Source of the DNA: Lachnospiraceae bacterium
GTDB taxonomy: Bacteria > Bacillota > Clostridia > Lachnospirales > Lachnospiraceae
Assembly: GCA_013316825.1 (NCBI GenBank)
Contig: WSLY01000013.1
Location: forward strand, 29,861 to 65,500
Length of the DNA: 35,640 nt
Reading direction: 5' to 3'
Shown here: positions 2,471-35,640 of the stretch, piece by piece
How the letters are laid out: each line of letters starts with the position of its first letter
Position numbering within the stretch: the stretch's first letter is position 1
Notes under the pieces: generated by a model
The model's input: only the letters and a program-made list of their open reading frames with translations
Told to the model about the DNA's origin: nothing
Database searches by the model: none
Program-made: the position numbers and the translations under genes

Positions 2471-2502
2471 GTTTTTTCCTTTCTGCGCTTCTCTGCCCCT
2501 CA

Positions 2503-2531
2503 TTGACAAGCCGCCGATATTATATTATGAT
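2503..2531 (+). promoter_or_regulatory. Sigma-A promoter for the glycyl radical activase
   Basis: TTGACA at 2503-2508 and TATGAT at 2526-2531 are separated by exactly 17 bases. This is a near-consensus housekeeping promoter pointing at the activase gene. The palindromic operator begins 7 bases downstream of the -10 box, so it would cover the transcription start, the classical repressor position. Confidence 0.75.
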
Positions 2532-2537
2532 TGATAC

Positions 2538-2549
2538 GTAAACGTTTAC
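2538..2549. promoter_or_regulatory. LacI-family operator, perfect palindrome
   Basis: GTAAACGTTTAC is a perfect 12-base palindrome with the central CG characteristic of LacI/GalR-family operators. It lies between the divergent activase (plus) and glycyl radical enzyme (minus). On the minus strand, ATGAGTAAACG recurs unchanged at the promoter near 14001-14016, which argues for a shared regulator. The lacI gene in this window is the obvious candidate. A CcpA-type cre site is an alternative reading. Confidence 0.72.
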
Positions 2550-2599
2550 TCATTGTCCGGCATACACCGGACAGACACACAAACAAAGGGGGTATCTCC

Positions 2600-3481
2600 A
2601 TGGGGATGCTGTTTGATATCCAACGCTGCTGTTACCATGACGGTCCCGGCATTCGGACTACGGTTTTTTTTAAAGGCTGCCAACTAAGCTGCGCGTGGTG
2701 CCACAATCCGGAATCCCTTTCTATGGCGCCTCAGCTTTCCTATACTGACAGGCTCTGCACACACTGCGGCAGATGTGCCGAAATCTGTCCTGAGAAAGTA
2801 CATCAGGTGACCCAAACAACGCATACCGTTGATTTTTCCTCCTGCCTTTCCTGCGGCAGATGCAGCGCCGTCTGTCCCGCAAAAGCCCTAAAGATATTTG
2901 GCTTTACAATGTCCGCCGGCGAAGTTATGCATACCGTGCGAAAGGATAAGGCGTACTATGCCGCCAGCGGCGGCGGCATTACCGTCTCAGGCGGGGAACC
3001 CACCCTGCAGCCGGATTTTTTGGAAGAGCTTCTCCGTCTCGCAAAAGCGGAAGACATCCACACCTGCTTAGAAACCAACGGCTATATCCCCAAAGCAATA
3101 CTGTCCCGTCTGCTTCCCCTGACAGACCTCTTCCTGCTCGACTATAAAATCACCGACAAAGAGGACTTGTTTTCTTACACCCATGCCGGCGGAACGCTCT
3201 GGGAAGATACCCTGCGGCGGCTGAACGACAACAAAAAACCGGTATGGCTGCGGCTCCCCATTATCCCCCGCATCAATGATACCAAAGAGCATATCGCCGG
3301 CGCTATCCGCATAAAGCGGCTTTTTCCCTGCATCACCAAAGTTGAAATCATGCCCTACCACTCCATCGGCGCTGCCAAATGGGAACAGCTTGGCATGTGC
3401 TATTCTTTAAAAACGCTGCCTGATGCCACCAAAGAACAGCAGGCGCGTTGGAATGCGTGGCTGCATGACCTTCTGCAGTAA
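2600..3481 (+). CDS. Glycyl radical enzyme activating enzyme (radical SAM)
   Basis: The product is a 293-residue radical SAM protein that generates the glycyl radical on its partner using S-adenosylmethionine and a 4Fe-4S cluster. The SAM-cluster motif is CQLSCAWC, Cys27, Cys31 and Cys34. It is followed by two ferredoxin-type clusters (Cys53, 56, 59, 63 and Cys82, 85, 88, 92), the arrangement of GRE activases other than the short PflA type. GITVSGGEPTLQ carries the GGE SAM-binding motif. The start at 2600 is chosen because GGGGG lies 7 bases before it; upstream codons in the same frame run through the promoter and operator. It is the only clear plus-strand gene in the window. Its partner is almost certainly the divergent enzyme ending at 272. 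Confidence 0.93.
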   Translation: MGMLFDIQRCCYHDGPGIRTTVFFKGCQLSCAWCHNPESLSMAPQLSYTDRLCTHCGRCAEICPEKVHQVTQTTHTVDFSSCLSCGRCSAVCPAKALKIFGFTMSAGEVMHTVRKDKAYYAASGGGITVSGGEPTLQPDFLEELLRLAKAEDIHTCLETNGYIPKAILSRLLPLTDLFLLDYKITDKEDLFSYTHAGGTLWEDTLRRLNDNKKPVWLRLPIIPRINDTKEHIAGAIRIKRLFPCITKVEIMPYHSIGAAKWEQLGMCYSLKTLPDATKEQQARWNAWLHDLLQ

Positions 3482-12692: not shown

Positions 12693-13979
12693 TTACTCAG
12701 CCGTATTTACAAACACGGAAAGGTACGCGCTCACCCAGCCGCCCTCTGTGGTGGAAGGACAGTAGAAATACAGAACGTCGCCCTCGCTCATCGCCGCGTC
12801 GAAGCTGTATTCATTGGGCAGGGACGTAAATTCCGCTATCTCAAACTCGGACACTGTCTCTCCGTTCAACACCGCATAAAATTTTTCCGCGCTCTGGCTG
12901 CAGGGATTGAACGCATAGCCGCTGAATGTAAAGGTTCCATCCGCCGGCGCCTTGAATCCCAGCGCCATCATGGTCGCGCCGCTGCCCGGTGTGTTCATCT
13001 CCAGATATTCACCCTCCAGATAACCCACCGTGCCGATGCCCGTACCGTCCTCTGAAAACCATTCGTCGGCATCGTAATCCGTATCCCTGTACTCTACGGC
13101 AGGAACAAAGTCTGCGCCGTCCGTGGTAGAAGCATACAGCCATACGCCGTTTGCGCCCTCTGCATTTTCCTTATCAAACTCCTGATAAGCATTGTAAACC
13201 GCTTCCTTTGTAAAATCAGGCTCCACGCCCTTTACTTCCCTTTCTTCCACCTCGGGAACCGTATACACGGAATCATCCACGGGCTCATATACCATGGTAC
13301 AACCGATATACGCGCTCACCCAGCTGCTGTCGGTGGAATTACAGTAGATATAGAGCTTCTCGCCCTTTTCCATCTGCACGTCGGTAGGCGTCACATATGC
13401 GTAATTGTCCACGATTTCCGTCATATCCACGGAAAGCACCACCGTGCCGTCCTGCTTTTTAAAGGTAAACACATCGCAAGGCTGCCCCCACGGATTCCAC
13501 ACCTTAGCGGTAATCACGTACTTGCCCGCTGCCGGCGCCTCAAACGCCAGAACACCCATCTGATTGGAGAAGTCTTTGGAAACGCCGTCCGTATTTAACT
13601 CCAGAAAACCTTCTACATTGTCATTAAATCCAACGCCTATGTAGCTTCCCTCCCAAGGGTGCCAGCCTTTTACACTTGCATCCGGATATTCGTCATAGCT
13701 GCCGCAAGCGTCAAAGGTCTCGCCGTTATCTCCTGAAAAGTAGTACTGCCAAGGTCCGTTCTGTCCCTCTGCGACGTTAAAATCTGCCACGGAATCAAAG
13801 GTTGTACCTGCCTCCAGACCGCCTTCGTTCTCCGGCTCTGCCGTAGGCTCCGGTGACGTCGTCTCTTCCTGCGTGGGCTCCGGTGTGTTCCCTGTCGCAG
13901 GCTTATCCTGCTCCTTGCCGCAAGCGGCTAACGAACAAACCATAACTGCCGTCATTAATGTTACAAGTAACTTCTTCAT
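12693..13979 (-). CDS. Lipoprotein with two tandem beta-sandwich domains, unknown function
   Basis: I do not recognise a named family. Of 428 residues, the first 20 are a lipoprotein signal ending in lipobox LAAC. A Pro/Glu/Thr-rich linker to about residue 60 follows, as expected for a surface lipoprotein. Two similar domains follow, near 60-235 and 258-428. Both contain GPWQYY/GVWLYA near the start, a YIGVGF/GTVGYL plus LE(L/M)NT strand, GxLAFEAPAAG/ALGFKAPADG, and end in YIYCNSTDSSWVSAYIG / YFYCPSTTEGGWVSAYLS. The aromatic-rich jelly-roll pattern suggests carbohydrate binding. It is the first gene after the operator-controlled promoter at 14023-14051, so it should be highly expressed upon induction. 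Confidence 0.85.
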   Translation of the reverse strand: MKKLLVTLMTAVMVCSLAACGKEQDKPATGNTPEPTQEETTSPEPTAEPENEGGLEAGTTFDSVADFNVAEGQNGPWQYYFSGDNGETFDACGSYDEYPDASVKGWHPWEGSYIGVGFNDNVEGFLELNTDGVSKDFSNQMGVLAFEAPAAGKYVITAKVWNPWGQPCDVFTFKKQDGTVVLSVDMTEIVDNYAYVTPTDVQMEKGEKLYIYCNSTDSSWVSAYIGCTMVYEPVDDSVYTVPEVEEREVKGVEPDFTKEAVYNAYQEFDKENAEGANGVWLYASTTDGADFVPAVEYRDTDYDADEWFSEDGTGIGTVGYLEGEYLEMNTPGSGATMMALGFKAPADGTFTFSGYAFNPCSQSAEKFYAVLNGETVSEFEIAEFTSLPNEYSFDAAMSEGDVLYFYCPSTTEGGWVSAYLSVFVNTAE

Positions 13980-22828: not shown

Positions 22829-24184
22829 TTAGTTGCCAAGCATCAAATTGATTTTTGAATTAATCTCCGGCTCCATGTTGGCGTTGATTGTCGCCGCAGG
22901 CACACCGTCGTTGATATAATTTACAATTGTGGCAATCGTGGTGCCGATATCGTTTAAGCACTTGTCATAAGCATAGACAAGCTCTACGTCGTCCGCATAA
23001 ATCATATCGTAGTTCTCCTGCCCAATGCGGTTTGCTTCCTTCTGGTCGCCTACCTCTTTCTGCAGCTCGTTGACAATCCTCATAAAAGCCACCGCACCTT
23101 CCGGATTTTTGGCTCCGGCAGGAACTGCCATCCCCTGCGGATATACCACCAGATTCTTACCTGAGTAATCGTCGCCTGTAGGGAAAGGTACCATACCTAC
23201 CTCAAAGGGCGTGTCCACGGGATATTCCTTGCCTCTTATCATTGCCATTGTGCCGTTGTCAAACCATCCCCACATGTCGTTTCCGTATACAAAGCTGTCC
23301 TTCAGCTCCACCAGATAATTCAGCGTATTCTGGCTCTCCACAGAATTCAGATTGGAAGTAACCGTGCCGTTTGCGGTATCCACATTTAACAGGGAGCCGC
23401 CGTTTGCGTACATAAAGGACAGTATGGTATCCTCATAGGAGCCGTAGCCAAGCTGGGAAGGCTCGCCATCCACTGTTTTTGTCAGACTCTTGCAGGCATC
23501 CCTGAAGGTACTCCAGTTCCAGTTGCCCTCTGCAAAGAGCTCGTCCGGCGCTTTCATGCCCTCTAAGTCAAACAAATCCCTGTTAAACATAATGTAGAAA
23601 GCATAGGGCTTTAAGGGAATGGCATATACGGATCCATTCCATGAAAACAGTTCCTTATCTACCTTGTAGTAGCTGTAATCCGCATCCGTGGTAAGGTCAT
23701 CCAAAGGGCTTACCACGCCGGAAAGAATCACGCTGTACATACTCTCGTCAAATACCTCGAAAAGGTCCGGGGCATCCCCTGCCTTCTGCAGCGCCAGCAC
23801 AGTTTCCAGCATATCTCCCCACGCTGCGTAAATTACGTTAACCTTGCCCCCGTATTTCTCCTCAAAATATGGAATTGCCTCTAAAATGGGATCGTATACA
23901 TTCTCGTTCTTTGAGGTATCGTATGCATACTGGTCCTGATTATACCAGTACACAATGGTAATATCCGGATTGCTCAAGGTTTCCGGCAGCCCTTCCGCAT
24001 CGCTTAAAAAACCAAGGTTTCCCTCTGTGTCCTCTCCGCCCGGTGCCGGACCTCCGTCTGTTTCCGGCGTGGGCGTTGTCCCCTGACTGTCCGGATTTGA
24101 CGCAGGCTTATCTCCGCAGGCGCTCAGCACGCACATGGACATCGCCAGCAACAGGGCAAGCAGCTTCTTCATTCTTTTCTTCAT
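22829..24184 (-). CDS. ABC transporter sugar-binding lipoprotein
   Basis: The product is a 451-residue family-1 extracellular solute-binding protein. The signal ends in lipobox VLSAC (Cys23). A Gly/Pro/Thr-rich linker to about residue 55 is followed by the two-lobed binding fold: ITIVYWYNQDQ, EEKYGGKVNVIYAAWGDM, LALQKAGDAPDLFEVFDES and YAIPLKPYAFYIMFNRDLF. It should deliver an oligosaccharide to the permeases encoded at 24659-26568. A strong AAAGGAGG site lies 7 bases before the ATG. The 57-base gap before it may hold a weak promoter, but I see no clear -35/-10 pair. Confidence 0.93.
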   Translation of the reverse strand: MKKRMKKLLALLLAMSMCVLSACGDKPASNPDSQGTTPTPETDGGPAPGGEDTEGNLGFLSDAEGLPETLSNPDITIVYWYNQDQYAYDTSKNENVYDPILEAIPYFEEKYGGKVNVIYAAWGDMLETVLALQKAGDAPDLFEVFDESMYSVILSGVVSPLDDLTTDADYSYYKVDKELFSWNGSVYAIPLKPYAFYIMFNRDLFDLEGMKAPDELFAEGNWNWSTFRDACKSLTKTVDGEPSQLGYGSYEDTILSFMYANGGSLLNVDTANGTVTSNLNSVESQNTLNYLVELKDSFVYGNDMWGWFDNGTMAMIRGKEYPVDTPFEVGMVPFPTGDDYSGKNLVVYPQGMAVPAGAKNPEGAVAFMRIVNELQKEVGDQKEANRIGQENYDMIYADDVELVYAYDKCLNDIGTTIATIVNYINDGVPAATINANMEPEINSKINLMLGN

Positions 24185-24241
24185 AACAAATCCTCCTTTA
24201 ATATAATGTATTTGTTGTAACGTGCTTATCCGGTACCAAGT

Positions 24242-24634
24242 TTATACACATATGTACCAGAACACTCCATATTTATCCAATACATCCGCGCTGCATTTAC
24301 TCCATGGCACTTCCCCTATTTCTCTTTGCGCGATGCCTTCTCTCATCAAATACTCGTATGCTTTCCTTACCTCACCTTCCGTAGCAAAATTAATCCCCAG
24401 ACTTGTAATCAGGCATGTTTTTGACGCAGCCAGCTTACGCATTTCAGGAATCAGACATTCGTTGTTGTGCTCGCTTATGGCAAAAATCGTTTGTCCATCC
24501 TTTTGTAACTCTGCGTGCATATAGGTCCCATCCGGATTCTTCACATTGTAGCCCAGCGTCATCCCAAAAGCCTCCTGATAAAACACAACTGCTTCCTTTG
24601 TATCTTTGATGTATAAAGTTGCACCTAGTGTCAT
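24242..24634 (-). CDS. VOC superfamily protein (glyoxalase/PhnB-like)
   Basis: This 130-residue protein has the paired beta-alpha-beta-beta-beta fold of vicinal oxygen chelate proteins: TLGATLYIKDTKEAVVFYQEAF, YMHAELQKDGQTIFAI and a closing VLDKYGVFWYICV. It is of the PhnB/3-demethylubiquinone-like type, often of unknown function. It is placed between permease and binding-protein genes of one ABC module, 24 bases after the permease stop with a strong AAGGAGGG site. The protein shows no obvious link to transport. It could detoxify methylglyoxal from sugar catabolism or bind a small ligand. Confidence 0.8.
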   Translation of the reverse strand: MTLGATLYIKDTKEAVVFYQEAFGMTLGYNVKNPDGTYMHAELQKDGQTIFAISEHNNECLIPEMRKLAASKTCLITSLGINFATEGEVRKAYEYLMREGIAQREIGEVPWSKCSADVLDKYGVFWYICV

Positions 24635-24658
24635 CGTATCACCCTCCTTATTCTCCTT

Positions 24659-25639
24659 TTACATACCCGTCAGACCGGAATTTTCAATGCCTTCGGAAAA
24701 CCGCTTCTGCAAGAACAGATACAGAATAATCAGCGGCACAATGGCAATCAGACACGCCGCCTGAATCTGGGTATTCGCCGTCTGTATATTTTCCATACCC
24801 GTTCCCATATTGTGCAGGTTTTCCAGCTTATTCTGGAAGCCCGCCAACGCCGTGGCAATGGTATCCTTCACGCGGATAAACATGGCAGGCGTATAATAGT
24901 CATTCCAGTTCCATACCACGGACAAAAGCAGCACGGAAATCACAATGTTCTTTGCCGTCGGCACGATAATTCTGGTAAAAGTACCAAACGCACTGCAGCC
25001 GTCGATTGCCGCAGCCTCCTGCAATTCCTTGGGCAGCCCTGTAAAAAACTGCCTGTAAATAAAGATAAAAATCCCGCTTTTTAACCCTACGCCCAGAAGG
25101 GAGGGCAATATCGTCACCCATGCCGTCCCTATCAGGTTCGGCGTATTTATGACGTCCGTCAGCTTATGAAGAAATCCAAGGATTCCCAAAAAATCAAAGT
25201 ACCGGTAGCTGGTGTAGAGGGAGGTGGAAATTACCTGCTGCGGTACGATAATGGTAAGGATAACCCCCGCAGAAACAAGCTTTTTTCCCTTAAAATCAAA
25301 TCTTGCCAGCCCATAGCCCACCATCATGCAGACCACTGTGGAAATCAATGCCGGAAGCAGCTCTATGATAAAGGTATTCCAGAGTATTTTTCCCACATCC
25401 ATGATGAGCAGCACAATCTTGAAATTTTCCAGTGTCAGGCTTTTGGGAAGCCAGATAACGGACGGGTCGTAATACTGCTCCACAGGCTTAAACGCGTTGC
25501 TTACCATATACAAAACCGGATAGAGCACCACATAGGCAAGCCCCAGCATAAAGAGCTGCCTTGCAACTGCCCAGACAAACCGAAAGGGTTTCACCACCTT
25601 AAGCCTGTGCATAAGCGTTTCCTTCGTCTCTTTTTTCAC
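24659..25639 (-). CDS. ABC sugar permease (MalG type), module B
   Basis: The product is a 326-residue inner-membrane permease with about six helices and the cytoplasmic coupling loop ELQEAAAIDGCSAFGTFTRI ahead of IVPTAKN (EAA motif). YPVLYMVSNAFKP is near the N-terminus, typical of the MalG/CUT1 partner. Start codon is GTG at 25639, preceded by AGGAGGT at about 6 bases; no nearer ATG fits. It starts 11 bases after the partner permease stop and should dimerise with it, energised by an ATPase encoded elsewhere. Confidence 0.93.
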   Translation of the reverse strand: MKKETKETLMHRLKVVKPFRFVWAVARQLFMLGLAYVVLYPVLYMVSNAFKPVEQYYDPSVIWLPKSLTLENFKIVLLIMDVGKILWNTFIIELLPALISTVVCMMVGYGLARFDFKGKKLVSAGVILTIIVPQQVISTSLYTSYRYFDFLGILGFLHKLTDVINTPNLIGTAWVTILPSLLGVGLKSGIFIFIYRQFFTGLPKELQEAAAIDGCSAFGTFTRIIVPTAKNIVISVLLLSVVWNWNDYYTPAMFIRVKDTIATALAGFQNKLENLHNMGTGMENIQTANTQIQAACLIAIVPLIILYLFLQKRFSEGIENSGLTGM

Positions 25640-25650
25640 GCTTCCACCTC

Positions 25651-26568
25651 CTAATTCTCAATTTTATTTGCCTTTCTCCCCAAAAGCAGCCACGCCAGCA
25701 GAAGGAAAAAAGCAATTACGATAAAATACAGCCACGCCATCGCCGAGCTCATACCAAACTTCATCGTCTGCCCAAAGCCCATATCCTGAATCGCCTTCAT
25801 CATGACATTACCGTCGGCGCTTCTGCCGTAAGCCGTACAGGAATCCACAATACTGTAAACAATATTTAAAAAGATAATGGGAGATATCTTGGGCACCGTA
25901 ATTTTCCAAAAAATATCCCAGCTTCCCGCGCCCTCTATCCGTGCCGCCTCGTAAGCGCTCTCCGGAATCTTCTGCAGCCCTGAAATATAGAGCAGAATCG
26001 GGACGCCGCAGTTGGTAATCATGGCATAGATGCTGTCTACGACTCCCATAATCAAGGTGATAACCTCCTGACTGACGCCGCCGCGGCTCATCAAGTCTGC
26101 AATGGAGCTGCCGTTCATATACGCATTGCCTGTGCCGCTAAGCCCCAGAGAGCCCACAACACTTCCCACCATGGAATACACCACGCCGCTTGTCATGATA
26201 ATGGGAAGAAAGAAAATAGCACGGTATACCGTTCTTCCTCTGAAATTCTGCACCAATACCACAGCGATAAACAAACTCAAAATGGTGCATACGGCTACCT
26301 GTGTCAGCATGTCCGCCGTCACGGTCCAGAGATTCATCAAGAATTTGCTGTCCTCTACAATCAAATACCTGAAATTATAGAGTCCTACAAACTTCGTTTC
26401 CATGCCGCCGGTTCCCATTGTCACGTCGTTTAAGGTATACCACATACTCTCCAGAAAGGGCTGCAGGAAAAAAATAATAAACCCTATCACCCATGGGAGC
26501 ACAAACAGATAACCTGCCCTCTGCTGCCTGCGAATCAGCTTTGAGGATTTTTTCCGTTTTCCTGCCAT
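25651..26568 (-). CDS. ABC sugar permease (MalF type), module B
   Basis: The product is a 305-residue permease. The N-terminus MAGKRKKSSKLIRRQQRAGY precedes helix 1 (LFVLPWVIGFIIFFLQPF). The EAA loop is SAYEAARIEGAGSWDIFWKI followed by TVPKISP. The start at 26568 overlaps the DUF5696 stop by one base (TGATG) and follows GGGAG. A longer frame to 26640 lies inside the DUF5696 gene and is unlikely to be used. The GSVVGSLGLSGTGNAYMNGS stretch is a typical extracellular insert of CUT1 MalF-like partners. Confidence 0.93.
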   Translation of the reverse strand: MAGKRKKSSKLIRRQQRAGYLFVLPWVIGFIIFFLQPFLESMWYTLNDVTMGTGGMETKFVGLYNFRYLIVEDSKFLMNLWTVTADMLTQVAVCTILSLFIAVVLVQNFRGRTVYRAIFFLPIIMTSGVVYSMVGSVVGSLGLSGTGNAYMNGSSIADLMSRGGVSQEVITLIMGVVDSIYAMITNCGVPILLYISGLQKIPESAYEAARIEGAGSWDIFWKITVPKISPIIFLNIVYSIVDSCTAYGRSADGNVMMKAIQDMGFGQTMKFGMSSAMAWLYFIVIAFFLLLAWLLLGRKANKIEN

Positions 26569-28895
26569 CAATATCCACTCCCTTCCGCATACGCTGTCGC
26601 AGCTCCCGATACCACAACCCCGCCGTCCTGCACCAGACAATAACCCTCTGCCGGAATCTGAAAACCGTCTGCCTCCGCAGCGTCACTACCGTAATTAACG
26701 TAGATGATGCTGCCGTTTTCGTAGGTTACCTTCCTTACCTCTTCAGACAAAATCGTATGTCCTGTTATGATACTCGTCTGCACACCGCTCAGCACTTCAT
26801 TTAACTCCCCATACTGCAGTCCCATATAGGATATCCAGTCACGGTAATCCGCCGAATACAGCTCGTCCGTTCTGGAGCCAATCAGCTCATCTACATTCTC
26901 TCCCACCAGCGCGTACAGGGGATATGCGCCGTATTCCATACAGGTAAGCGTCATATTCGCCGGATTGCTCGTCAAATTGGAGGCGCCAAGCGAATAGGAA
27001 ATATAACCGTGGAATACCATCTGGTAAAAAGGAATGCTTACATCCTCTATATCGTAGCCGCTGCTTTTTGCCGGCGTCTGTAAAATATGGCTTGCATACA
27101 CCGCAGCATACACGTTTGCACCGGTCAGCAGCAGATTATCCATACTTTCGCCCGCTTCCCTTACCGTCTCCGCAATCACGCTTGCCGCCTGCGTGCGCCC
27201 CATACCGCCTCTTCCCAGCTCCGAATAACACATCTGACCGATGGAATCCAACGCCAGATTGCCATATCCCTGCTTTATCATATTCTCCGCAAGGCGCGCA
27301 TAAAATGCAGGCAGCGCCGCCGGTCTGAGCAGATACCAAGAATCATAGCGGCTGTCAACTGTCGCTATATTCAGCCTGTACTCGTACTGCCTCTGCGCCG
27401 TATTCGCCACCGACTGCAGCACATCGCGATACCGGCTTACCCCTCTGCCCAGCTTATATACATTCATCAAATCCGCCGACAGGTACAGACCGCCGCCGTT
27501 CTGCGCAAGCCGCTCCTGCAGCGCTAAAAACGCCTTTTTGCTTCCCACCTTCTTCTCTGCTTTGGCATGTGTAGGGATTTTTCCGTAATAACTGTTGCTC
27601 ATCCAGTAATTGTACTTAAGGACGATATTTTCTATCCCCTCCGCTGCCGCCGCATCCAGAATTTTCTCCGCATCCGCTACGGTTGTCATGGCAATTTTCG
27701 TCTCCCTTGGGATGCCCAGAAAGGACTTTGTCTTTTCAATGTAACCGTAAAGCTCCAGATAAAGCGGAATGCTTTCCGACTCCTCCGTGCGCTTTACAAG
27801 ACCGCTCCCCGCAATCAGGTACTCCCTGTAGCACGCCGCCATATCTGCATATTCGGCCCTGCCATCCTCTAAAAACAGGTAGCTTACCTCAAAATCCTGC
27901 CAGGTCTCCGGCGATTTCTCCCCGATACCCACCGCCTTTTGTGTACCGTCCTTCTGCACCTGTATCACCGTTCCGGTCAGTCTGTAGGAGTATGTGCTCC
28001 AAACCGTGTTATACAGGGTATATTTTCCTGCCACATCCGCATTGACTGCCCCCCTGCCATCCCCTCCGGTGATAACCGCCAGAAAGCCGCCGCCGTTCTG
28101 ATGTACGCCAAAGACGGGAAGATACTGGTTTTGCGAGAGTGTGATGGTGGTTTCGGCCGCCTGCTTGTCGCTTGTGCCATTGTCAAAGCCGTAGAGCGTC
28201 TTTTGATACGTATTCGCCGCCGTCTTTGCATTGTTATAATAGATCAGGGCGCCGCTGCCGTCCGGCACCAGCATATACCCCTCCGCCTCCCTGCCGCCTG
28301 CGCCAAAAAAGGGCAGGAAATCTATGCTGTCAATCTTATTTGTGCCATATTCTATAATGCCATCCGCCAGAATCCTCGCGCTAAACCCATCCTCCCTGAG
28401 TGCATACCGCACCGGAATCCGAAATTCCTCATTGGGAAAATCAAAGAGAAAGATGATGGAGCCGTCCTCCTCCATGCGGTATGTCATCCCATCCTTTGCG
28501 ACGCTTGACATATAACCGCCGCATGACATGGACACGCTGCGCTCCGTGCTGTATTTCACCGTCACCACGGAAAGAAGCGCGTTTTTGTTGAACCCGCTGG
28601 CAAGCCCGTCTTCCCGCTTATCCACAGGGTTGGAATACCATGTGCGCCCTTCCTGTTTGTCCTCTACCGCCATCTCCCCGCTGCTCAAATCCGCATACAG
28701 AATAAAGCGTGCATTTTCGTCGATTTTAACCAGTCCTTCCGCCGACGCCGCGGGTAGAAATCCTTCCGTATAATCGATTGCCTCTTCTTCATCAAAGGCA
28801 TCCGGAACAGACGTCCCTTTTTGCTGTCCGCAGCCTGCCGTTGTCAGCAGAATGCCTGAAAGCAGCAGGCAGAATATCTTTTTTATTTTTTTCAT
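26568..28895 (-). CDS. DUF5696-type lipoprotein, possible surface glycosidase
   Basis: This 775-residue lipoprotein has lipobox TTAGC (Cys22) and resembles the DUF5696 proteins I know from sugar ABC loci of Bacillota. Residues ~50-360 are beta-rich, reminiscent of a galactose-mutarotase-like N-domain (VRYALREDGFSARILADG, YMLVPDGSGALIYYNN). Residues ~370-690 look like a TIM barrel: GIENIVLKYNYW, GGGLYLSADLMNVY, GYGNLALDSIGQ (Asp550) and IPFYQMVFHGYISYS. A small beta domain closes it (VTYENGSIIYVNYG). A sandwich-plus-barrel layout is that of several GH families, so a catalytic role outside the cell is plausible but unproven. Start at 28895 after GGGAG; its stop overlaps the next permease. Confidence 0.8.
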   Translation of the reverse strand: MKKIKKIFCLLLSGILLTTAGCGQQKGTSVPDAFDEEEAIDYTEGFLPAASAEGLVKIDENARFILYADLSSGEMAVEDKQEGRTWYSNPVDKREDGLASGFNKNALLSVVTVKYSTERSVSMSCGGYMSSVAKDGMTYRMEEDGSIIFLFDFPNEEFRIPVRYALREDGFSARILADGIIEYGTNKIDSIDFLPFFGAGGREAEGYMLVPDGSGALIYYNNAKTAANTYQKTLYGFDNGTSDKQAAETTITLSQNQYLPVFGVHQNGGGFLAVITGGDGRGAVNADVAGKYTLYNTVWSTYSYRLTGTVIQVQKDGTQKAVGIGEKSPETWQDFEVSYLFLEDGRAEYADMAACYREYLIAGSGLVKRTEESESIPLYLELYGYIEKTKSFLGIPRETKIAMTTVADAEKILDAAAAEGIENIVLKYNYWMSNSYYGKIPTHAKAEKKVGSKKAFLALQERLAQNGGGLYLSADLMNVYKLGRGVSRYRDVLQSVANTAQRQYEYRLNIATVDSRYDSWYLLRPAALPAFYARLAENMIKQGYGNLALDSIGQMCYSELGRGGMGRTQAASVIAETVREAGESMDNLLLTGANVYAAVYASHILQTPAKSSGYDIEDVSIPFYQMVFHGYISYSLGASNLTSNPANMTLTCMEYGAYPLYALVGENVDELIGSRTDELYSADYRDWISYMGLQYGELNEVLSGVQTSIITGHTILSEEVRKVTYENGSIIYVNYGSDAAEADGFQIPAEGYCLVQDGGVVVSGAATAYAEGSGY

Positions 28896-28934
28896 CCTTG
28901 CTCCCATCTGCGTGCCCTGACACGCCTTCTTCCC

Positions 28935-29561
28935 TCAAAGCCGAAAGGCAATTTCATTGTATATTGTCACCAAAAACACGTATATCTGCTGTACCAGACT
29001 GTACCCCAACAGCAACAAAAACAAAATTACCACAATGCCCGCCGCCGTCAGAAAAAGGTTTAAAACCACCTGTAAAAAAGTAAGCTGATGTACGTAGTAC
29101 TCTCCTAAAAGCAGAATCAAAAAGCTCCACAAAAGCCCGATAAAGCGGATTGCCTCTAAGAACGCATTCATCTCGTTGTTTACAAAGTTCGTCGCTATGA
29201 TATAAATCAGTTCAAACACCGTGTAAGGAACCAGCGTATAGGTAAGCATGATAAAAATGTGACGGCTCTTTCCCTCCGTAAACATAAGCGAGCTCACCGC
29301 CCAGTTTGCCACATAGCAGATGGCAAACCCTCCCATGGTAATGAGAAAAATGGACGGCACTGAAATCTTGTCGGGATTTGTCGTGTTAAAGATAAAACCC
29401 GTGAGCACCTCGTCAAACACATTCACCAGAAAGAAGGCTGCCAGAATGATACAGCAGACGGGCAGGCTTCCCTCATTGTTCCATTTCACCCTGTCAAAGC
29501 CGTTGACCGGATGAAACATGGTATATTTGCACTGCTTAAAGCCCTCCTTCAGCTTATTCAT
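28935..29561 (-). CDS. YIP1-type polytopic membrane protein
   Basis: This 208-residue protein has a short amphipathic N-terminus (MNKLKEGFKQCKYTMFHPVN, then GFDRVKW) and about five hydrophobic segments, including LPVCCIILAAFFLVNVF and FIGLLWSFLILLLGEYY. This is the layout of the bacterial Yip1 family, best known in eukaryotes from ER/Golgi trafficking proteins. The bacterial role is unknown. Its ATG overlaps the stop of the NHL/TPR gene by 4 bases (ATGA), and the DUF5696 gene follows within 40 bases. That fixed coupling suggests a complex of these three products at the membrane. Confidence 0.78.
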   Translation of the reverse strand: MNKLKEGFKQCKYTMFHPVNGFDRVKWNNEGSLPVCCIILAAFFLVNVFDEVLTGFIFNTTNPDKISVPSIFLITMGGFAICYVANWAVSSLMFTEGKSRHIFIMLTYTLVPYTVFELIYIIATNFVNNEMNAFLEAIRFIGLLWSFLILLLGEYYVHQLTFLQVVLNLFLTAAGIVVILFLLLLGYSLVQQIYVFLVTIYNEIAFRL

Positions 29562-30985
29562 GCGTTTGCTCCTTTCCGTTTTTTCCGATGCTTTGCAAAT
29601 ACCACCGCCGCTGCCGCTATCAGTGCCGCTGCCAGCACGATTGTGCCAAAGGAATCCCGCATCCTCTGCAGGGATGCCTCCTTATAGGCGTCTGAATAAT
29701 TTGCCCTGTCGTTTGCCAGCCGGTAATAGTACATCGCCCTGTCATACTCGCCAAGCTGATAATATGCTTTCCCCAGACCGGTATAGGCAAGCAGGTAATT
29801 GGAATTGCGCCGTACCACCTCCTGCCACGGCTCTATGCTCTCCTCATAAAGACCCTCGTTGTACAAATTGATTGCCGTCCGCACAAGCTTCCCAAACTGT
29901 GTCAGTTCAAACTCCGTGATGGTGTTTTTATCCGCATCCAACACATATATTTTTTCTTCTATCTGCACCATGGATACCGGCTTTTTGAAGAGCCCCACCT
30001 GATTACCCAGACCGCCAAAGGTAAACATCAGCTTTCCGTTTTCATCCATCTGATAGATAGTCCCCTCATTGGCCTCTATCAGCGTTATCACACCGCTTTC
30101 ATCCACTGTGACATCCCCGTAAAGTATCGATATCCTGCTTTTAAAGGGGAGCGTATCGATACCGAGGGGATTTAATTTTGTCAGTACGTTGGTGCTTTCT
30201 CCCCTGCTTTCGCTGCCTGCTGCCGTAGCATAAATATAACCGTCGGCGCCCAAAAAGAGATTGCCGTACTCGATAGGGTTAAATGCCTGCATGGTCGCCG
30301 CCGCCTTGTCGCTCAGAATACTTTTCCATACCTTCTGGACTCTGCGCTTCAGCGTCATTTCCACCTCATTCGCCCCAAAAAACTTAATAAATGAACCGTC
30401 CTGCTCCAAATAGACAATTCCCTGATAAACGCCCTTGCTCAGCACATAAATCCTGCCTGCCGCATCCACCACCACCTTGTGCGGCTGATAGTTAAAATTG
30501 TCCGGCAGTAGGGAGGATACCGGCGCGCCGAACACATTGCTTACCTGCCCTTCCCTGTCGCAGACCACAACCTCCTGCCTGCCCATTTCTGCAATATAAA
30601 CCTTCTCGCCTGCGGCATAGATTCCCTGCGGATTCACAAAGCTATATTCGCTGCCATCCTGCAGGGTAAGGCTCTCCCAGCATTTCACTGCCTGCAGGTT
30701 TCTATCAAGCACCACAATCCGCCGGTTTCCGGAATCCACAATATAGAGCTCGCCATACTCCGCACAGTAAAACATGTCGGAGGCGTCCTTGAAATCACCC
30801 AGCCCAAGCTGTGCGCCCCCGATGCTCCGCGTCGGCAGATAACCGTCGGGAGCCGGCGTCGCATTGCCCCATTTATCTATTGTATAAGTCTGATACGGCG
30901 CTTCCGCCGCCCGCACCGCCATGGGGGACAATAAAAGAACCATACCGCACAGCAGCGAAATAAATCGTTTTCCGTTTTTTTTCAT
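29558..30985 (-). CDS. Membrane-anchored NHL-repeat and TPR protein
   Basis: The 475-residue product is exported: MKKNGKRF, then ISLLCGMVLLLSPMAVRAA, is a type I signal peptide. Residues ~45-350 contain NHL/beta-propeller repeats (ELYIVDSGNRRIVVLDRN, VYIAEMGRQEVVVCDREG, KIYVLDADKNTITEFELTQ). Residues ~365-435 hold TPR-like helices (YNEGLYEESIEPWQEVV, YTGLGKAYYQLGEYDRAMYY). The end is a transmembrane helix (TIVLAAALIAAAAVVFA) with a KHRKKRK stop-transfer tail. The propeller should therefore face outside. Start chosen at 30985 behind GGAG; an upstream ATG at 31000 is inside that site. It probably acts as a scaffold or sensor for the surrounding transporter proteins. Confidence 0.82.
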   Translation of the reverse strand: MKKNGKRFISLLCGMVLLLSPMAVRAAEAPYQTYTIDKWGNATPAPDGYLPTRSIGGAQLGLGDFKDASDMFYCAEYGELYIVDSGNRRIVVLDRNLQAVKCWESLTLQDGSEYSFVNPQGIYAAGEKVYIAEMGRQEVVVCDREGQVSNVFGAPVSSLLPDNFNYQPHKVVVDAAGRIYVLSKGVYQGIVYLEQDGSFIKFFGANEVEMTLKRRVQKVWKSILSDKAAATMQAFNPIEYGNLFLGADGYIYATAAGSESRGESTNVLTKLNPLGIDTLPFKSRISILYGDVTVDESGVITLIEANEGTIYQMDENGKLMFTFGGLGNQVGLFKKPVSMVQIEEKIYVLDADKNTITEFELTQFGKLVRTAINLYNEGLYEESIEPWQEVVRRNSNYLLAYTGLGKAYYQLGEYDRAMYYYRLANDRANYSDAYKEASLQRMRDSFGTIVLAAALIAAAAVVFAKHRKKRKGANA

Positions 30986-31006
30986 ATCTTTTCTCCGCAT
31001 AATTTC

Positions 31007-31873
31007 CTAGCCTTTGATACCAGTCTGGGACATGGTTTCCATTACAGAGGACTGTGAAATGACAAAGACAGTCACAGGCGGTATCATCATAATCAGCGCC
31101 ACCGCCGCGCCCGCGCCGGCTCTCGCGATACCCGCCGAGGAGATGGACTGCATAACCGCCGTCAAAGTTTTCAGCGCTTCCTCATAAATATACTGTGATT
31201 CTCCCGTATTCCAAAGGTCCTTAAAGGTGAAAATCGTCAACGTCATCCACGCGGGGCGCACCAGCGGCATAATAAGCTTCCAGAAACAGACAAAATCACT
31301 GGCGCCATCCACCCGCGCCGCCTCCAGCATCTCATTTGGCACCGTAATCATAAACTGCCGCATCAGGAAAACGCCGAAGCTACCCGCCATAACCGGCAAA
31401 ATCAGGGACCAGTAGGTATTGATAAGCCCCAGCTTGCTGATGATGATATACAGGGGCGTCCTCGTCACCTCCGGACGAAACAGGATTGCCAGCACCACAA
31501 TCTGATAGTAGACGCCTATATACCGGCTCTTATTCTTCGCCAGAGGATACGCAGCCATGGAAGCAATGATGATATATGCCGCCGTGCCCGCCACCGCAAT
31601 AAACAGGCTGTTAAACAACGAACGCTCAAAGGGAATCCACGTTTCCTGCGTAATCTCTATCAAATCGCTGAAATTTGCCCATGTGGGATTCCTGACAAAA
31701 AACTTTGGCGGATACGCCAGTATTTCGTTCAAGGGCTTAAACGCCGTCACCAACACATATATGATGGGAAGCAGCATAAACGCGCCCGCCACGGCGAGAA
31801 ACGCAAATATGAAAAATGTACCTGCCTTGGAACGGCTCAGGGTTTTTCTTTTACTTCTCCGAATTCTTTTCAT
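31007..31873 (-). CDS. ABC sugar permease (MalG type), module A
   Basis: The product is a 288-residue permease with LLPIIYVLVTAFKPLNEI near the N-terminus and EAA loop EMLEAARVDGASDFVCFWKL followed by IMPLVRP. The first 18 residues are strongly basic (KRIRRSKRKTLSRSK). It ends with SSVMETMSQTGIKG, a typical CUT1 C-terminus. It starts 18 bases after the partner permease stop and is followed by the NHL/TPR gene within 22 bases. It is clearly different in sequence from the module B permeases, so it is not a recent duplication. Confidence 0.92.
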   Translation of the reverse strand: MKRIRRSKRKTLSRSKAGTFFIFAFLAVAGAFMLLPIIYVLVTAFKPLNEILAYPPKFFVRNPTWANFSDLIEITQETWIPFERSLFNSLFIAVAGTAAYIIIASMAAYPLAKNKSRYIGVYYQIVVLAILFRPEVTRTPLYIIISKLGLINTYWSLILPVMAGSFGVFLMRQFMITVPNEMLEAARVDGASDFVCFWKLIMPLVRPAWMTLTIFTFKDLWNTGESQYIYEEALKTLTAVMQSISSAGIARAGAGAAVALIMMIPPVTVFVISQSSVMETMSQTGIKG

Positions 31874-31891
31874 TTGTGTCTGCCCCTTTCC

Positions 31892-32803
31892 TTACGACCA
31901 CTTTGACAAAAGCTTGTTGACTGCTTTCCACATGATGAGCATCATGGCAAACAAGAATACCGCTACCGCGCAGGCATAGCCCATCTCAAATCTGACCTGT
32001 CCAAAGTCCAGTATGTGAAGCACCATCGTATGCGTCGCATAATCTGTACTGGGAAAGCCCGTCAGGTTCATGCATTCGTAGCCGACCGCAAAAGAGGTCG
32101 ATATCTGCATAACTGCGCCAAACAGAAGCTGGGGGCCCATCTGGGGAAGCGTTACGTACCAAAGCTCCGCAAACCGGTTTTTTACACCGTCAATTGCCGC
32201 CGCCTCAAAAAGCTCCCTGTCCATAGACTGCAAACCCGCTACAAAGGATAAAAAGCCCGTTCCCAAAGACAGCCACAGAATTACCACAATCACCACTACC
32301 ATCATGTATTTCGTATCCGTCAGCCACTGTATAGCGTCGTCTGTAATACCGAACTTTGTCAGCAGATTATTCAGCAGACCGTAGCTGTCGCCGGAAAAAA
32401 TGTAAGTCCAGACAAAATATACGTTGCCCGCCAATGACGGCAGATAGAATACCAGCGTCAGCACGGTTCTCACAAAACGATTGAACTCATTAATCAGCCA
32501 CGCCACCATAAAACTCAGGATATAGCTGATAGGACCCGTTATCATGGCGAAAATGGCAGTATTCTTTAACGCAATCAGAAACACATCGTCGTCAAAAAAC
32601 ATTCTGATATAATTGTCAAAGCCGACAAACGTAGGCGCGCTCAGCATATTAAAATACGTAAAGCTCAGCACGATTGCTGCCGCAATCGGCAAGATGGTAA
32701 ACAGGACAAACAGAATCGTAAAAGGCGCCAGAAATATCAGGCTGGAGCCCTGTTGCCGAAACCATTTTCTTATGCTGCCTTTTTTTGTTTTTTTACCGCT
32801 CAT
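31892..32803 (-). CDS. ABC sugar permease (MalF type), module A
   Basis: The product is a 303-residue permease. After a basic start (MSGKKTKKGSIRKWFRQQGS) comes helix 1, LIFLAPFTILFVLFTILPI. The EAA loop is ELFEAAAIDGVKNRFAELWY, then VTLPQMGPQ. I placed the start at 32803; the frame is open to 32923 but those 40 residues overlap the end of the binding-protein gene. The ribosome-binding site is weaker and farther than for neighbours (GAGAGG about 12 bases upstream), which may reduce translation unless coupled to the gene before it. Confidence 0.9.
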   Translation of the reverse strand: MSGKKTKKGSIRKWFRQQGSSLIFLAPFTILFVLFTILPIAAAIVLSFTYFNMLSAPTFVGFDNYIRMFFDDDVFLIALKNTAIFAMITGPISYILSFMVAWLINEFNRFVRTVLTLVFYLPSLAGNVYFVWTYIFSGDSYGLLNNLLTKFGITDDAIQWLTDTKYMMVVVIVVILWLSLGTGFLSFVAGLQSMDRELFEAAAIDGVKNRFAELWYVTLPQMGPQLLFGAVMQISTSFAVGYECMNLTGFPSTDYATHTMVLHILDFGQVRFEMGYACAVAVFLFAMMLIMWKAVNKLLSKWS

Positions 32804-32825
32804 AGATACCCGCTGCCTCTCTGTC

Positions 32826-35640
32826 TTAATAGTTAAATTCCTTCTGCTTGCGCTGCAGTTCCTTATTGATTTCAATATTGTATTTATACAGCGTTTCCCG
32901 CAGGTTACTGTTGCCGTACACAACGCCCCTGAAGGCGAACGCCAGATTGCGGGCGATATAATAGCTTCCCGGAATCTGCTCCACCGCTACCGTATTCTCT
33001 CGCTGTCTGCGGATGACCTCCGCCTGCGCGCTGTTCCACGGAAGATTTTCAAATGCCGCCAGATTGGCTGTCCCGTACCGCGCCGCTACGCCAAGGGTCT
33101 GTTCCACCTGCACGCCGAAATCACTCTGTGTTTCAGCGCTCACCCACCATTTTAAAAATGCATAGGCTTCGTCGGGGTACGCCGTGTCCGCCAGTGCAAT
33201 CGCCCCCGTGGAGGTTGACGTTTCTACATAATTGATGCCATCTTCACAGGGAGTCCCCGGCATCACCGCAATATCCCACAAACCGTTCAACTCGGGCGCC
33301 GCAGAATACAGATAATTCACCTGATTGTAGGGCTCAATCGCCAGCGCCATCTCTCCGCTTCTGAACCGGTTGAAAAAGTCAAACACAAGGGAAAGGCTGT
33401 ATTTGGTATATAAGCCCGTCCAACCGTCAAAGGCTGACAGCGCCTCGCCCGTGTGAAACATGGAGCTGCTCATATCCTCGCTGTAAAAGCGCCCTCCCTG
33501 CTGATACAAAAAGGTCTCAAAAATATTCTGGTTCTGCGGCACGCCTACCATGTAATTTTCATTTGCCAGAAGAATCACCTGCTCATAAAATTCATCCCAT
33601 GTGGCAGGCGGGCAAAGTCCAAGCTCTTCATAGATATCCGTGCGGTAGAACAGGACGTTAAAATTCTGCGTCTCCGGAAAGGCATAGCAGCCATCCTTAT
33701 ACCAGAAAGGCGTCACCGCGCTTGGGGTAAACTGTCCAATTACCTCTTCAAAATCGTCATATCGGCTTAAGTCTAAAAGCGCCCCCCTCATTGCCAGATT
33801 GACAGGCGTATCCACTGAGGTAAACAGCGCCACATCCGGTCCCTCTCCTGCAAGCACCGCCTGAACCAGTGTGTCGGATCCGCTTACAAGACTCACCTCC
33901 ACAGGAACCCCAGTCTGTACAGAAAAGGACTCGTCTATCAGTTTCTTTAAAAGGATTGCCTGATCCCTGCCGGATGACGCTCCTGTAGTCGTGATATCCG
34001 CCGTACTAATCCAGACGCGCAGCTTCTTATCGCCACCCGTTTCCGTTCCGCTTCCCGAAATGGCATTTGTCTCGCCGGCAAAAGAATCGAGAAACATGGA
34101 AAAGCGGTAAACAAGCTGCTTCCACGCGCCGCCTCCCACCTTAGGCTTGTCCATATCGGGTGAATATACCATAAATTTATCCATGGTAAGCGGCTGCGCC
34201 TGCATGTCAATCCGCCATGTGGCAAGATTGCTGATATTGCTCCTGAAGGTTTCAATCCGTTTTGCTATTTTTCCCGGTCTCTTCAGAAAATCCTTAAGCG
34301 TCTCCGCCATCTCTTTCAGCGTGGAAGCGCCTGCGCCGGAAAGCCCCTCCATGCCCTCTAAAACGCTATAATAATATTCCAGTCTTTCCTTGCAGTCCTG
34401 CAGGCCTTCCAGCAGTCCCGGAATGTTCTTTTCCAAATCAAAATCGCGGTTTAAATCAATGGTGATTCTGGTGCCATCCGCATTAAATCCGGTGACCTTA
34501 ATAATTTCCCTGTACCAGTGCTGCAGATCCTTTGTCACCGCTTCCACGCCCCGCAGCACCTCTGCCAGCTCTTCGTCCATGTCCGCTTTCATACCCAGCA
34601 CATGACGCCCCGCCGTCAGATATATCTTCATCGGCTCCCCATCCGCCGTAAGCTCCTTCACATACCAGCCCGACTGGTAGGGAAATTTCTGTCCTGCCAT
34701 CTCCTCGCAAAGGACGGAGCCGTCAATGCTTATCTCCCTGACAGAGTAAGCGTTGCTTTTTTCATTCTGCTTTACCTTGAAGGCAATGTAATAAAAACCA
34801 TCCTGCGGCACTTCAAACTCCCATGTAATTTCCTGTCCTACTTCCTTCCAGGTGTTCTTACCGATGGTATTGTAATATACTGCGCTCGCACTGGAGGGCG
34901 TCACGTGGACATTCGCCGTATCATAGGTAGCAAAAAGGGTAATGTCGTTTTTTAAATAGCTCTTCTCTGCCTCGTACTCCGCATAGTATCCGCTGCTGTC
35001 CGCAGCGCCTTCTGCCATCCAGCCCTGCAGCACCTCCTCGTAAGCCGCCGCTTTATCCGCATGTCCAAAGTGCAATGCTTTGAGCGCCACGCTTTCCTCT
35101 TTCAACATAAGAGTGACTGTATGCCGCCCCTCTGTAAGATAAAACTGCAAAGGACCCGGATATACCGTTGCGGAATCCGTAAGCCACTCCGTCTGCCATT
35201 CGTACTGCTCCATCAGAGCAGGTCTGACATCGCCGCCCCTTGCGTCTTTTGCAAAGGCATTATCCGCCATTCCAAAATAGGTTTCATCCAGAAACAGCCT
35301 GCGCAAGCTTACATTTTTTGCATTTTCAAACGGAATTTCGCCGTCCAGCAGCACGTCCAGCACAATATCATAGTTCTTTCCCGAAATACCGCAGTATGTA
35401 AGCGCAAGGTTATAAAGCCCTTCCTCCGCCACATCAAATTCCCATGTAACGCTGCCGCCTGCCGTATCCCAGTACAGACAGCCGTCCTCTCCCATATAAG
35501 AAGACAAATAGGCGCCGGAGCCTTCCTCAGACACAAAATCTGCCGCTGCTATCTCAAGCACGTCGGAGGCTTCCCTCTTTGCCTGCTTTGACGGTTTCCG
35601 CGAGCTGTTTGCGGGCAGCAGCATTGGACAGGCGATTTTA
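32826..35640 (-). CDS. Multidomain ABC solute-binding protein with two beta-sandwich modules, N-terminus beyond the window
   Basis: Numbering from the ATG at 35624 gives 932 residues, but the frame stays open to the window edge and no ribosome-binding site precedes that ATG, so the gene starts outside. Residues ~25-185 and ~215-350 are two similar beta-sandwich modules (WEFDVAEEGLYNLALTYCG / WEFEVPQDGFYYIAFKVK, and YLTEGRHTVTLML / YLTAGRHVLGMKAD), like carbohydrate-binding modules. Residues ~350-480 are helical. From ~533 (KLRVWISTADITTTG) to the end is a family-1 binding domain: VLAGEGPDVALFTSVDTP, YAFPETQNFNVLFYRTDIY, NGLWDIAVMPGTP. Ordinary sugar-binding proteins are about 420-550 residues. 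It feeds the two permeases encoded just downstream. Confidence 0.88.
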   Translation of the reverse strand, partial: KIACPMLLPANSSRKPSKQAKREASDVLEIAAADFVSEEGSGAYLSSYMGEDGCLYWDTAGGSVTWEFDVAEEGLYNLALTYCGISGKNYDIVLDVLLDGEIPFENAKNVSLRRLFLDETYFGMADNAFAKDARGGDVRPALMEQYEWQTEWLTDSATVYPGPLQFYLTEGRHTVTLMLKEESVALKALHFGHADKAAAYEEVLQGWMAEGAADSSGYYAEYEAEKSYLKNDITLFATYDTANVHVTPSSASAVYYNTIGKNTWKEVGQEITWEFEVPQDGFYYIAFKVKQNEKSNAYSVREISIDGSVLCEEMAGQKFPYQSGWYVKELTADGEPMKIYLTAGRHVLGMKADMDEELAEVLRGVEAVTKDLQHWYREIIKVTGFNADGTRITIDLNRDFDLEKNIPGLLEGLQDCKERLEYYYSVLEGMEGLSGAGASTLKEMAETLKDFLKRPGKIAKRIETFRSNISNLATWRIDMQAQPLTMDKFMVYSPDMDKPKVGGGAWKQLVYRFSMFLDSFAGETNAISGSGTETGGDKKLRVWISTADITTTGASSGRDQAILLKKLIDESFSVQTGVPVEVSLVSGSDTLVQAVLAGEGPDVALFTSVDTPVNLAMRGALLDLSRYDDFEEVIGQFTPSAVTPFWYKDGCYAFPETQNFNVLFYRTDIYEELGLCPPATWDEFYEQVILLANENYMVGVPQNQNIFETFLYQQGGRFYSEDMSSSMFHTGEALSAFDGWTGLYTKYSLSLVFDFFNRFRSGEMALAIEPYNQVNYLYSAAPELNGLWDIAVMPGTPCEDGINYVETSTSTGAIALADTAYPDEAYAFLKWWVSAETQSDFGVQVEQTLGVAARYGTANLAAFENLPWNSAQAEVIRRQRENTVAVEQIPGSYYIARNLAFAFRGVVYGNSNLRETLYKYNIEINKELQRKQKEFNY

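Follow-up and report, generated by a model that had tools for sequence, protein, structure and literature searches.

A conserved nine-gene set joining two sugar-type ABC importer modules to an NHL/TPR, YIP1 and DUF5696 trio in Bacillota: a candidate surface complex for glycan uptake

Organization of the Locus

We analysed a 35,640-nucleotide stretch of DNA (the window) from a Lachnospiraceae bacterium (GCA_013316825.1, contig WSLY01000013.1, positions 29,861 to 65,500), with a focus on a minus-strand locus in which two modules of sugar-type ATP-binding cassette (ABC) importers flank three genes, the trio, encoding an NHL/TPR protein, a YIP1 protein and a DUF5696 protein. The source genome is incomplete (72.98% complete, 56 contigs), and the last base of the window is base 65500, the end of the 65500-base contig (C52). 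A preliminary description of this DNA had proposed that ten closely coupled genes form a larger surface machine, which captures and perhaps cuts a complex glycan before import. Open reading frames (ORFs), Pfam matches and junction sequences confirmed all ten genes on a single strand and in the order given there, with consecutive genes overlapping by at most 4 bases or separated by at most 57.

Module A comprises the binding protein SBPA (32826–35640; SBP_bac_1, 82.7 bits; aligned with 10 relatives), a protein of about 1000 residues of which 937 lie in the window, its start being lost because the contig ends there, and the permeases P1A (MalF-type, 31892–32803, start read at 32803; BPD_transp_1, 40.2 bits) and P2A (MalG-type, 31007–31873; BPD_transp_1, 31.1 bits). 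The trio follows, with the NHL/TPR protein (29558–31000; NHL 28.5 bits, over the cut-off, and TPR matches under theirs), the YIP1 protein (28935–29561; Yip1, PF04893, 36.4 bits against a cut-off of 28.6), and the DUF5696 protein (26568–28907; 565.7 bits), which carries a lipobox and has a predicted GH129 fold. Module B consists of the MalF-type permease P1B (25651–26568), scoring just under the BPD_transp_1 cut-off (25.2 versus 26.4 bits) and 75.9 bits with a UgpA-like NCBIfam model, the MalG-type permease P2B (24659–25639; BPD_transp_1, 53.3 bits), and the binding protein SBPB (22829–24184; SBP_bac_1, 79.4 bits), which has a lipobox.

The two overlaps that had been reported were borne out by the sequence: the stop of the NHL/TPR gene and the start of the YIP1 gene share four bases, ATGA (29558–29561), and the DUF5696 stop and P1B start have one base in common (26568, within TGATG). 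Gaps measure 22 bases between SBPA and P1A, 18 between P1A and P2A, 6 between P2A and NHL/TPR, 27 between YIP1 and DUF5696, and 11 between P1B and P2B. A scan for promoters and terminators (27 versus 17.1, standard deviation 4.7, and 18 versus 14.5, standard deviation 4.1) settles nothing about the transcript. The tenth gene, of the VOC/glyoxalase fold (24242–24634; Glyoxalase, 26.2 bits), is set 24 bases from P2B and 57 bases from SBPB. The conserved genes labelled in the relatives do not include it, and in the near relatives L120, L122, and L126 it does not occur between P2B and the binding protein; the conserved set is nine genes, the VOC gene excluded.

The NHL/TPR protein displays a signal peptide, a propeller, a TPR region, and a C-terminal membrane helix with a basic tail (hydrophobic segments 11–29 and 451–469), an architecture drawn in part from the structure model of a relative fused to YIP1, in which the fold matches listed were those of the propeller. 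The YIP1 protein has five hydrophobic segments. In one genome the NHL and YIP1 matches lie in one frame with a single internal TAG, read as two ORFs (G349:C40:12160-14262, locus L215, the same place as L142). The trio could alternatively be a sensor, with the propeller and DUF5696 binding glycan outside and YIP1 signalling to the importers or to a regulator so that transport is turned on. We regard this as improbable: Pfam revealed no signalling domain in the window YIP1 protein, the window NHL/TPR protein or a fused relative (L158), and the regulators, which differ between loci, are of kinds ordinary for sugar loci.

Conservation of Gene Order

Relatives were gathered from three samples. Among 61 genomes near that of the window, 31 carried DUF5696 (29 above the family cut-off), and 57 of 64 long matches in genomes other than that of the window were taken with their flanks. 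Of 558 confirmed stretches, a wider sample used the best 80, and these gave 79 loci from Paenibacillus, Cohnella, Neobacillus, Lederbergia, and Halalkalibacter as well as from Lachnospiraceae, Oscillospiraceae, and Clostridia metagenome-assembled genomes, many of them from animal guts. The third sample comprised 398 Bacillota genomes, from which 40 DUF5696 places were taken, the first 20 of them from different genera. Gene labels came from profiles whose training set was the window plus the 57 near loci, and the A and B labels of the permeases depend on these profiles. Profiles grown from the NHL and YIP1 matches merged, reflecting natural fusions, and the training set was cut at the domain border to separate the two.

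In total, 177 loci were gathered, of which 174 are distinct. YIP1, or an NHL/TPR-YIP1 fusion, stands immediately before DUF5696 in all 173 loci where that side is visible; a separate YIP1 is always immediately preceded by NHL (109/109), and the two are fused in 60 of the 174 distinct loci. On the other side, P1B comes immediately after DUF5696 (172/172 visible loci), and P2B is the next gene, or the next but one, after P1B (171/171). The order thus recurs across Bacillota in 174 distinct loci, indicating that the neighbourhood reflects more than chance, and the trio is found beside ABC permeases rather than mostly outside ABC loci. A single invariant locus was also considered. It looked near universal over the first 137 loci; among the next 40, many from distant families, some had a different order and others had no module A in place, and the claim was narrowed.

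Binding Proteins, Permeases and ATPase

Both binding proteins contain the sugar-type solute-binding domain SBP_bac_1 above its cut-off. In SBPA this domain is preceded by ~550 residues with N-terminal beta domains, for which the matches to CBM_35 and Golvesin are weak and under the cut-offs. The best NCBIfam matches of all four permeases are UgpA/UgpE-like, below the equivalog cut-offs, and the EAA loop is kept in all four. In the aligned relatives (131 for P1A, 137 for P2A, 155 for P1B, and 151 for P2B), the Glu (or Asp) and Gly of this loop are preserved with 3 exceptions, located at the P1B glycine. A loss of the loop in P1B, suggested by a strict pattern, was ruled out by this alignment.

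Comparison of the 77 loci with all nine proteins gave median pairwise identities of 0.55 for P1A, 0.49 for P2A, 0.38 for P2B and for P1B, 0.37 for SBPA, 0.35 for NHL, 0.32 for YIP1, 0.30 for DUF5696, and 0.22 for SBPB, the last being assigned to the closest binding protein with 380–650 residues and therefore possibly mis-assigned in some loci. The module A permeases are the least variable members of the set and SBPB is the most variable, as expected of a part that meets the substrate. Four or five tandem binding-protein genes lie downstream of P2B in L210 (the same place as L248) and L247, which fits SBPB as an exchangeable substrate part.

Pfam identified no ATPase among the ten genes. A UgpC/MsmX-type ATPase gene is present on another contig of the same genome (C37; NF008653, 502.3 bits against a cut-off of 432). 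In A. bescii a single ATPase of this kind, MsmK, is held to power oligosaccharide importers (PMC12838199).

Position of Module A

The position of module A varies more than that of the other genes. It is whole and directly upstream in 126 of the 174 distinct loci, and upstream yet cut or incomplete in 16, including L070 and L211, where SBPA/P1A is unrecognised or P2A is split; contig ends do not explain all of these cases. Five loci (L212, L216, L217, L219, and L243) carry it downstream on the opposite side, 15 have it hidden by a contig edge, and in 12 it was not found in place. Among these 12, L066 retains SBPA-P1A in place with a P2A-type permease further on, L164 has broken frames, and the other 10 show no SBPA within the fetched flanks (one of them, L204, has a P1A-P2A pair and a shorter binding protein downstream). 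The 10 loci come from five genomes, each of which holds SBPA elsewhere and has more DUF5696 than SBPA matches, with DUF5696 fragments counted: 11 versus 6 in G100, 10 versus 4 in G122, 19 versus 10 in G142, 10 versus 4 in G195, and 8 versus 4 in G225. The two numbers are equal in the other 11 genomes compared. One DUF5696 piece in G100 (C5:103998-104681) lies inside an open frame of 24576 residues, perhaps masked sequence.

These data divide the single ten-gene coupling of the preliminary description into two parts. The link of the trio to module B holds, and the constant adjacency of module A does not, since it is usually adjacent but was not seen beside 10 loci. The trio with P1B-P2B is one unit per locus, module A is present per genome, and in some genomes module A may be shared between loci. 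Module A, whose permeases vary less than the B permeases and which several trio and module B loci of one genome may share, could be a common motor rather than a second sugar importer. It would use ATP to pull on a polysaccharide chain, gripped by the propeller and the putatively dead glycosidase, and load it into the substrate-specific importer B; the whole would be a Gram-positive equivalent of SusCD assembled from ABC components. We consider this a speculative and rather unlikely proposal.

Co-Occurrence and Co-Divergence

DUF5696 occurs in 37 of the 398 Bacillota genomes, representing 20 of 267 genera. The NHL/TPR-YIP1 and SBPA surveys of these genomes scored at most 2 candidates per genome. 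All 37 genomes carry long NHL/TPR-YIP1 matches (the one in G453 is split between two contigs). The NHL/TPR-YIP1 profile matched 86 of the 398 genomes; beyond the 37, G302 appears only as a 170-bit piece ending an 8538-base contig, and the remaining 48 have NHL-type matches only, of at most 76 bits. The SBPA profile matched 45 genomes, including all 37 with DUF5696 (in G163 the match is cut by a contig end). SBPA without DUF5696 is full length in G164 and G214, where the contig ends 707 and 690 bases downstream, is a 487-residue frame in G140, and is reduced to the SBP domain alone in five genomes of family f41.

Eight of the proteins also diverge together. Their identities correlated at 0.59 to 0.86 across 48 within-genome pairs of paralogous loci, drawn from nine genomes of the genus to which the window belongs, and, as the pairs lie within genomes, the species tree cannot be the cause. 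A 683-residue NHL-YIP1 protein (P0173) is recorded from a Spirochaetia bacterium, a hint of the set beyond Bacillota.

Could the linkage have arisen by co-transcription only? Two ordinary CUT1 importers may serve two products of one glycan and be merely co-transcribed, with the trio as a separate surface glycan-holding unit and no joint complex. Each permease pair has its EAA loops, there are two binding proteins, operon order by itself gives co-regulation, and five genomes carry loci without an adjacent module A, all of which are compatible with such an arrangement. On the other hand, the trio lies directly before P1B in every visible locus, also where module A is on the opposite side (5 loci) or unseen, and SBPA is kept in 37/37 genomes with DUF5696. 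We consider this explanation rather unlikely.

Fold and Catalytic Positions of DUF5696

A structure model of the DUF5696 protein (predicted local distance difference test, pLDDT, of 91.2) showed that residues 59–776 match the fold of the glycosidases NagBb (5wzn), ZgGH129 (5opq), and SpGH101 (5a55), supporting the predicted GH129 fold. Enzyme-like controls for the catalytic positions were the proteins of L030 and L031 together with the 120 listed of their 2169 relatives. Both proteins match GH101 above the cut-off and GH129 below it (25.0 and 18.8 bits), hence the designation GH129/GH101-like; the search for controls found Pfam GH129 in 0 of 41 genus genomes and GH101 in 1 of 199 phylum genomes.

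Acidic residues occupy the two catalytic positions together in only 11 of 125 DUF5696 representatives, compared with 20/20 enzyme-like controls. Asp-554 in the window protein occupies the position of the residue common to NagBb and ZgGH129, and this position is Asp or Glu in 41/125 representatives versus Asp in 20/20 controls. As the catalytic pair is mostly unconserved, DUF5696 more likely binds glycan than cuts it, and a cutting enzyme was rejected as the best reading of the protein. The suggestion that the glycan is cut before import was therefore not borne out for DUF5696.

An active surface glycosidase with altered catalytic residues, which would allow the machine to cut glycan before import, seems quite improbable in view of the weak conservation at Asp-554 relative to the controls. 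It would agree with the GH129 fold, the conserved acids elsewhere in the family (Asp-216, Asp-242, Asp-622, and Glu-658), and the minority of representatives that keep both acids. In ZgGH129, too, the second catalytic residue is unlike that of NagBb (PMC5698469).

The earlier designation of DUF5696 as a large surface lipoprotein holds for the window protein, which has the lipobox, and less so for the family, as a simple lipobox pattern was present in only 41 of 157 relatives. The control proteins themselves (L030:868-2751, L031:748-2757, and relatives P0232–P0351) have ~630 residues and both GH129 catalytic residues in 122/122 cases; some of the relatives are publicly named 'DUF5696 domain-containing protein' (P0304, P0328, and P0329). 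Judging from these residues, they are likely active GH129/GH101-type enzymes under the DUF5696 name.

Flanking Genes and Possible Substrate

Beside the locus in the window lie genes for a GH42-like protein (below cut-off), GH106, GH4, GH38, and GH43 glycoside hydrolases, two PfkB kinases, and a D-lyxose isomerase. Relatives of the first two, GH42-like and GH106, follow the locus in L120, with identities of 78 and 81%, and in L122, with 63 and 64%, and one relative each occurs in L126 and L121. As a guess, the substrate could be a rhamnose-containing plant glycan. Between the two PfkB kinases is a 428-residue ORF (12693–13979, minus strand) with no Pfam or NCBIfam match, and a pyruvate-formate-lyase-like glycyl radical enzyme is encoded at 272–3481 alongside a divergent radical SAM activase gene.

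In the other loci, the downstream genes scanned (82 of 183 listed) included GH32N (9), GH26 (9), GH43 (5), GH9 (3), alginate lyase (2), and GH106 (2), whereas the upstream genes scanned (62 of 69) included LacI (9), AraC (6), and histidine kinase (4). GH32 genes lie on the flanks of the locus in L128. Across loci, therefore, the transport set accompanies enzymes for different polysaccharides. In Paenibacillus taihuensis, a sortase gene lies upstream of SBPA on the same strand (L124:1847-2830).

Proposed Mechanism

We propose that the nine-gene set works as one surface complex that holds a glycan and hands pieces to two sugar-type ABC importers, a reading to which we assign a probability of about 0.55. 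The physical complex, its substrate and transport are inferred from sequence. Of the larger surface machine proposed at the outset, the view of one multi-component system is supported by the invariant permease linkage and the co-occurrence of NHL/TPR-YIP1 and SBPA with DUF5696, and surface glycan capture fits because of the GH129-fold protein, the weak carbohydrate-binding module (CBM) matches on SBPA, and the polysaccharide enzymes alongside; glycan cutting by DUF5696 was not supported.

First, the neighbouring enzymes would shorten the polysaccharide. The chain would then be held near the membrane by the SBPA beta domains and by DUF5696, a putative glycosidase of GH129 type that has lost its activity, as their folds suggest, and SBPB, in light of its low conservation, could be the substrate-specific binder that loads P1B-P2B. 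The outer NHL/TPR propeller and the membrane YIP1, which occur naturally as one fused protein, probably act as a single scaffold, and this scaffold may tie DUF5696 to P1B-P2B, the genes to which it is linked. On this scaffold, SBPA-P1A-P2A would form another, conserved unit, either an importer or a loader. Finally, the MsmX/UgpC-type ATPase encoded elsewhere could be common to both permease pairs and power them, in line with their EAA loops.

Several observations weigh against this proposal. The CBM matches of SBPA fall below cut-off, module A was not seen beside 10 loci of five genomes, and DUF5696 retains both catalytic acids in some representatives as well as conserved acids at other positions. 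Moreover, both enzyme-like controls exceed the Pfam DUF5696 cut-off, which indicates that the family name covers both kinds of protein. Gene linkage alone would fit co-regulation as well, and it is from linkage that we infer contact between the parts.

Relation to Known Systems

The set would act as a sugar importer equipped with a unit for surface capture. Its parts belong to known families and its binding proteins and permeases place it in the CUT1 type, of which an additional permease pair and the trio make it a new form. No description of the gene set was found in the open PMC papers searched, which do not include subscription papers or preprints, and none of these papers was found for DUF5696. 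CUT1 importers with an MsmX/MsmK-type ATPase, such as Athe_0595-0598 of A. bescii, resemble the set in their binding proteins, MalF/MalG-type permeases, and ATPase gene outside the locus; the A. bescii system has one permease pair for two binding proteins, in contrast to two pairs and three further families here (PMC12838199). The GH129/GH101 glycosidases NagBb, ZgGH129, and SpGH101 share the fold of DUF5696, which differs in its unconserved catalytic pair and in lying always beside permeases in the loci seen.

In SusCD-type glycan uptake of Bacteroidota, a surface glycan binder is joined to a transporter, the same idea as proposed here. SusCD has a TonB-dependent channel, for which the window proteins scanned gave no Pfam match, whereas the present set is of Gram-positive type and built of ABC parts. 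The alginate superchannel AlgM1M2SS of Sphingomonas is an ABC importer whose binding proteins load a long polysaccharide; to our knowledge it has one permease pair and nothing like the NHL/TPR-YIP1-DUF5696 trio, and long-chain uptake by our set is only a proposal. DUF624/YesL-type proteins, encoded beside sugar importers, are, like the bacterial YIP1, small polytopic membrane proteins accompanying CUT1 permeases, but the YIP1 of this set comes with an NHL/TPR propeller, as a linked gene or as a fusion.

If the proposed complex exists, it would represent a so far unnamed route, common among the Bacillota sampled (37 of 398 genomes), by which complex glycans are held and imported; a retired glycosidase would serve in binding, and a single scaffold would carry two ABC importers. 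The findings raise the question of why a second, more conserved permease pair stands beside a sugar importer, and if module A drives module B, the set would count as a new kind. The complex would also assign a function to DUF5696 and a bacterial YIP1 protein, and aid the annotation of genomes in which DUF5696 matches number as many as 19, counting fragments.

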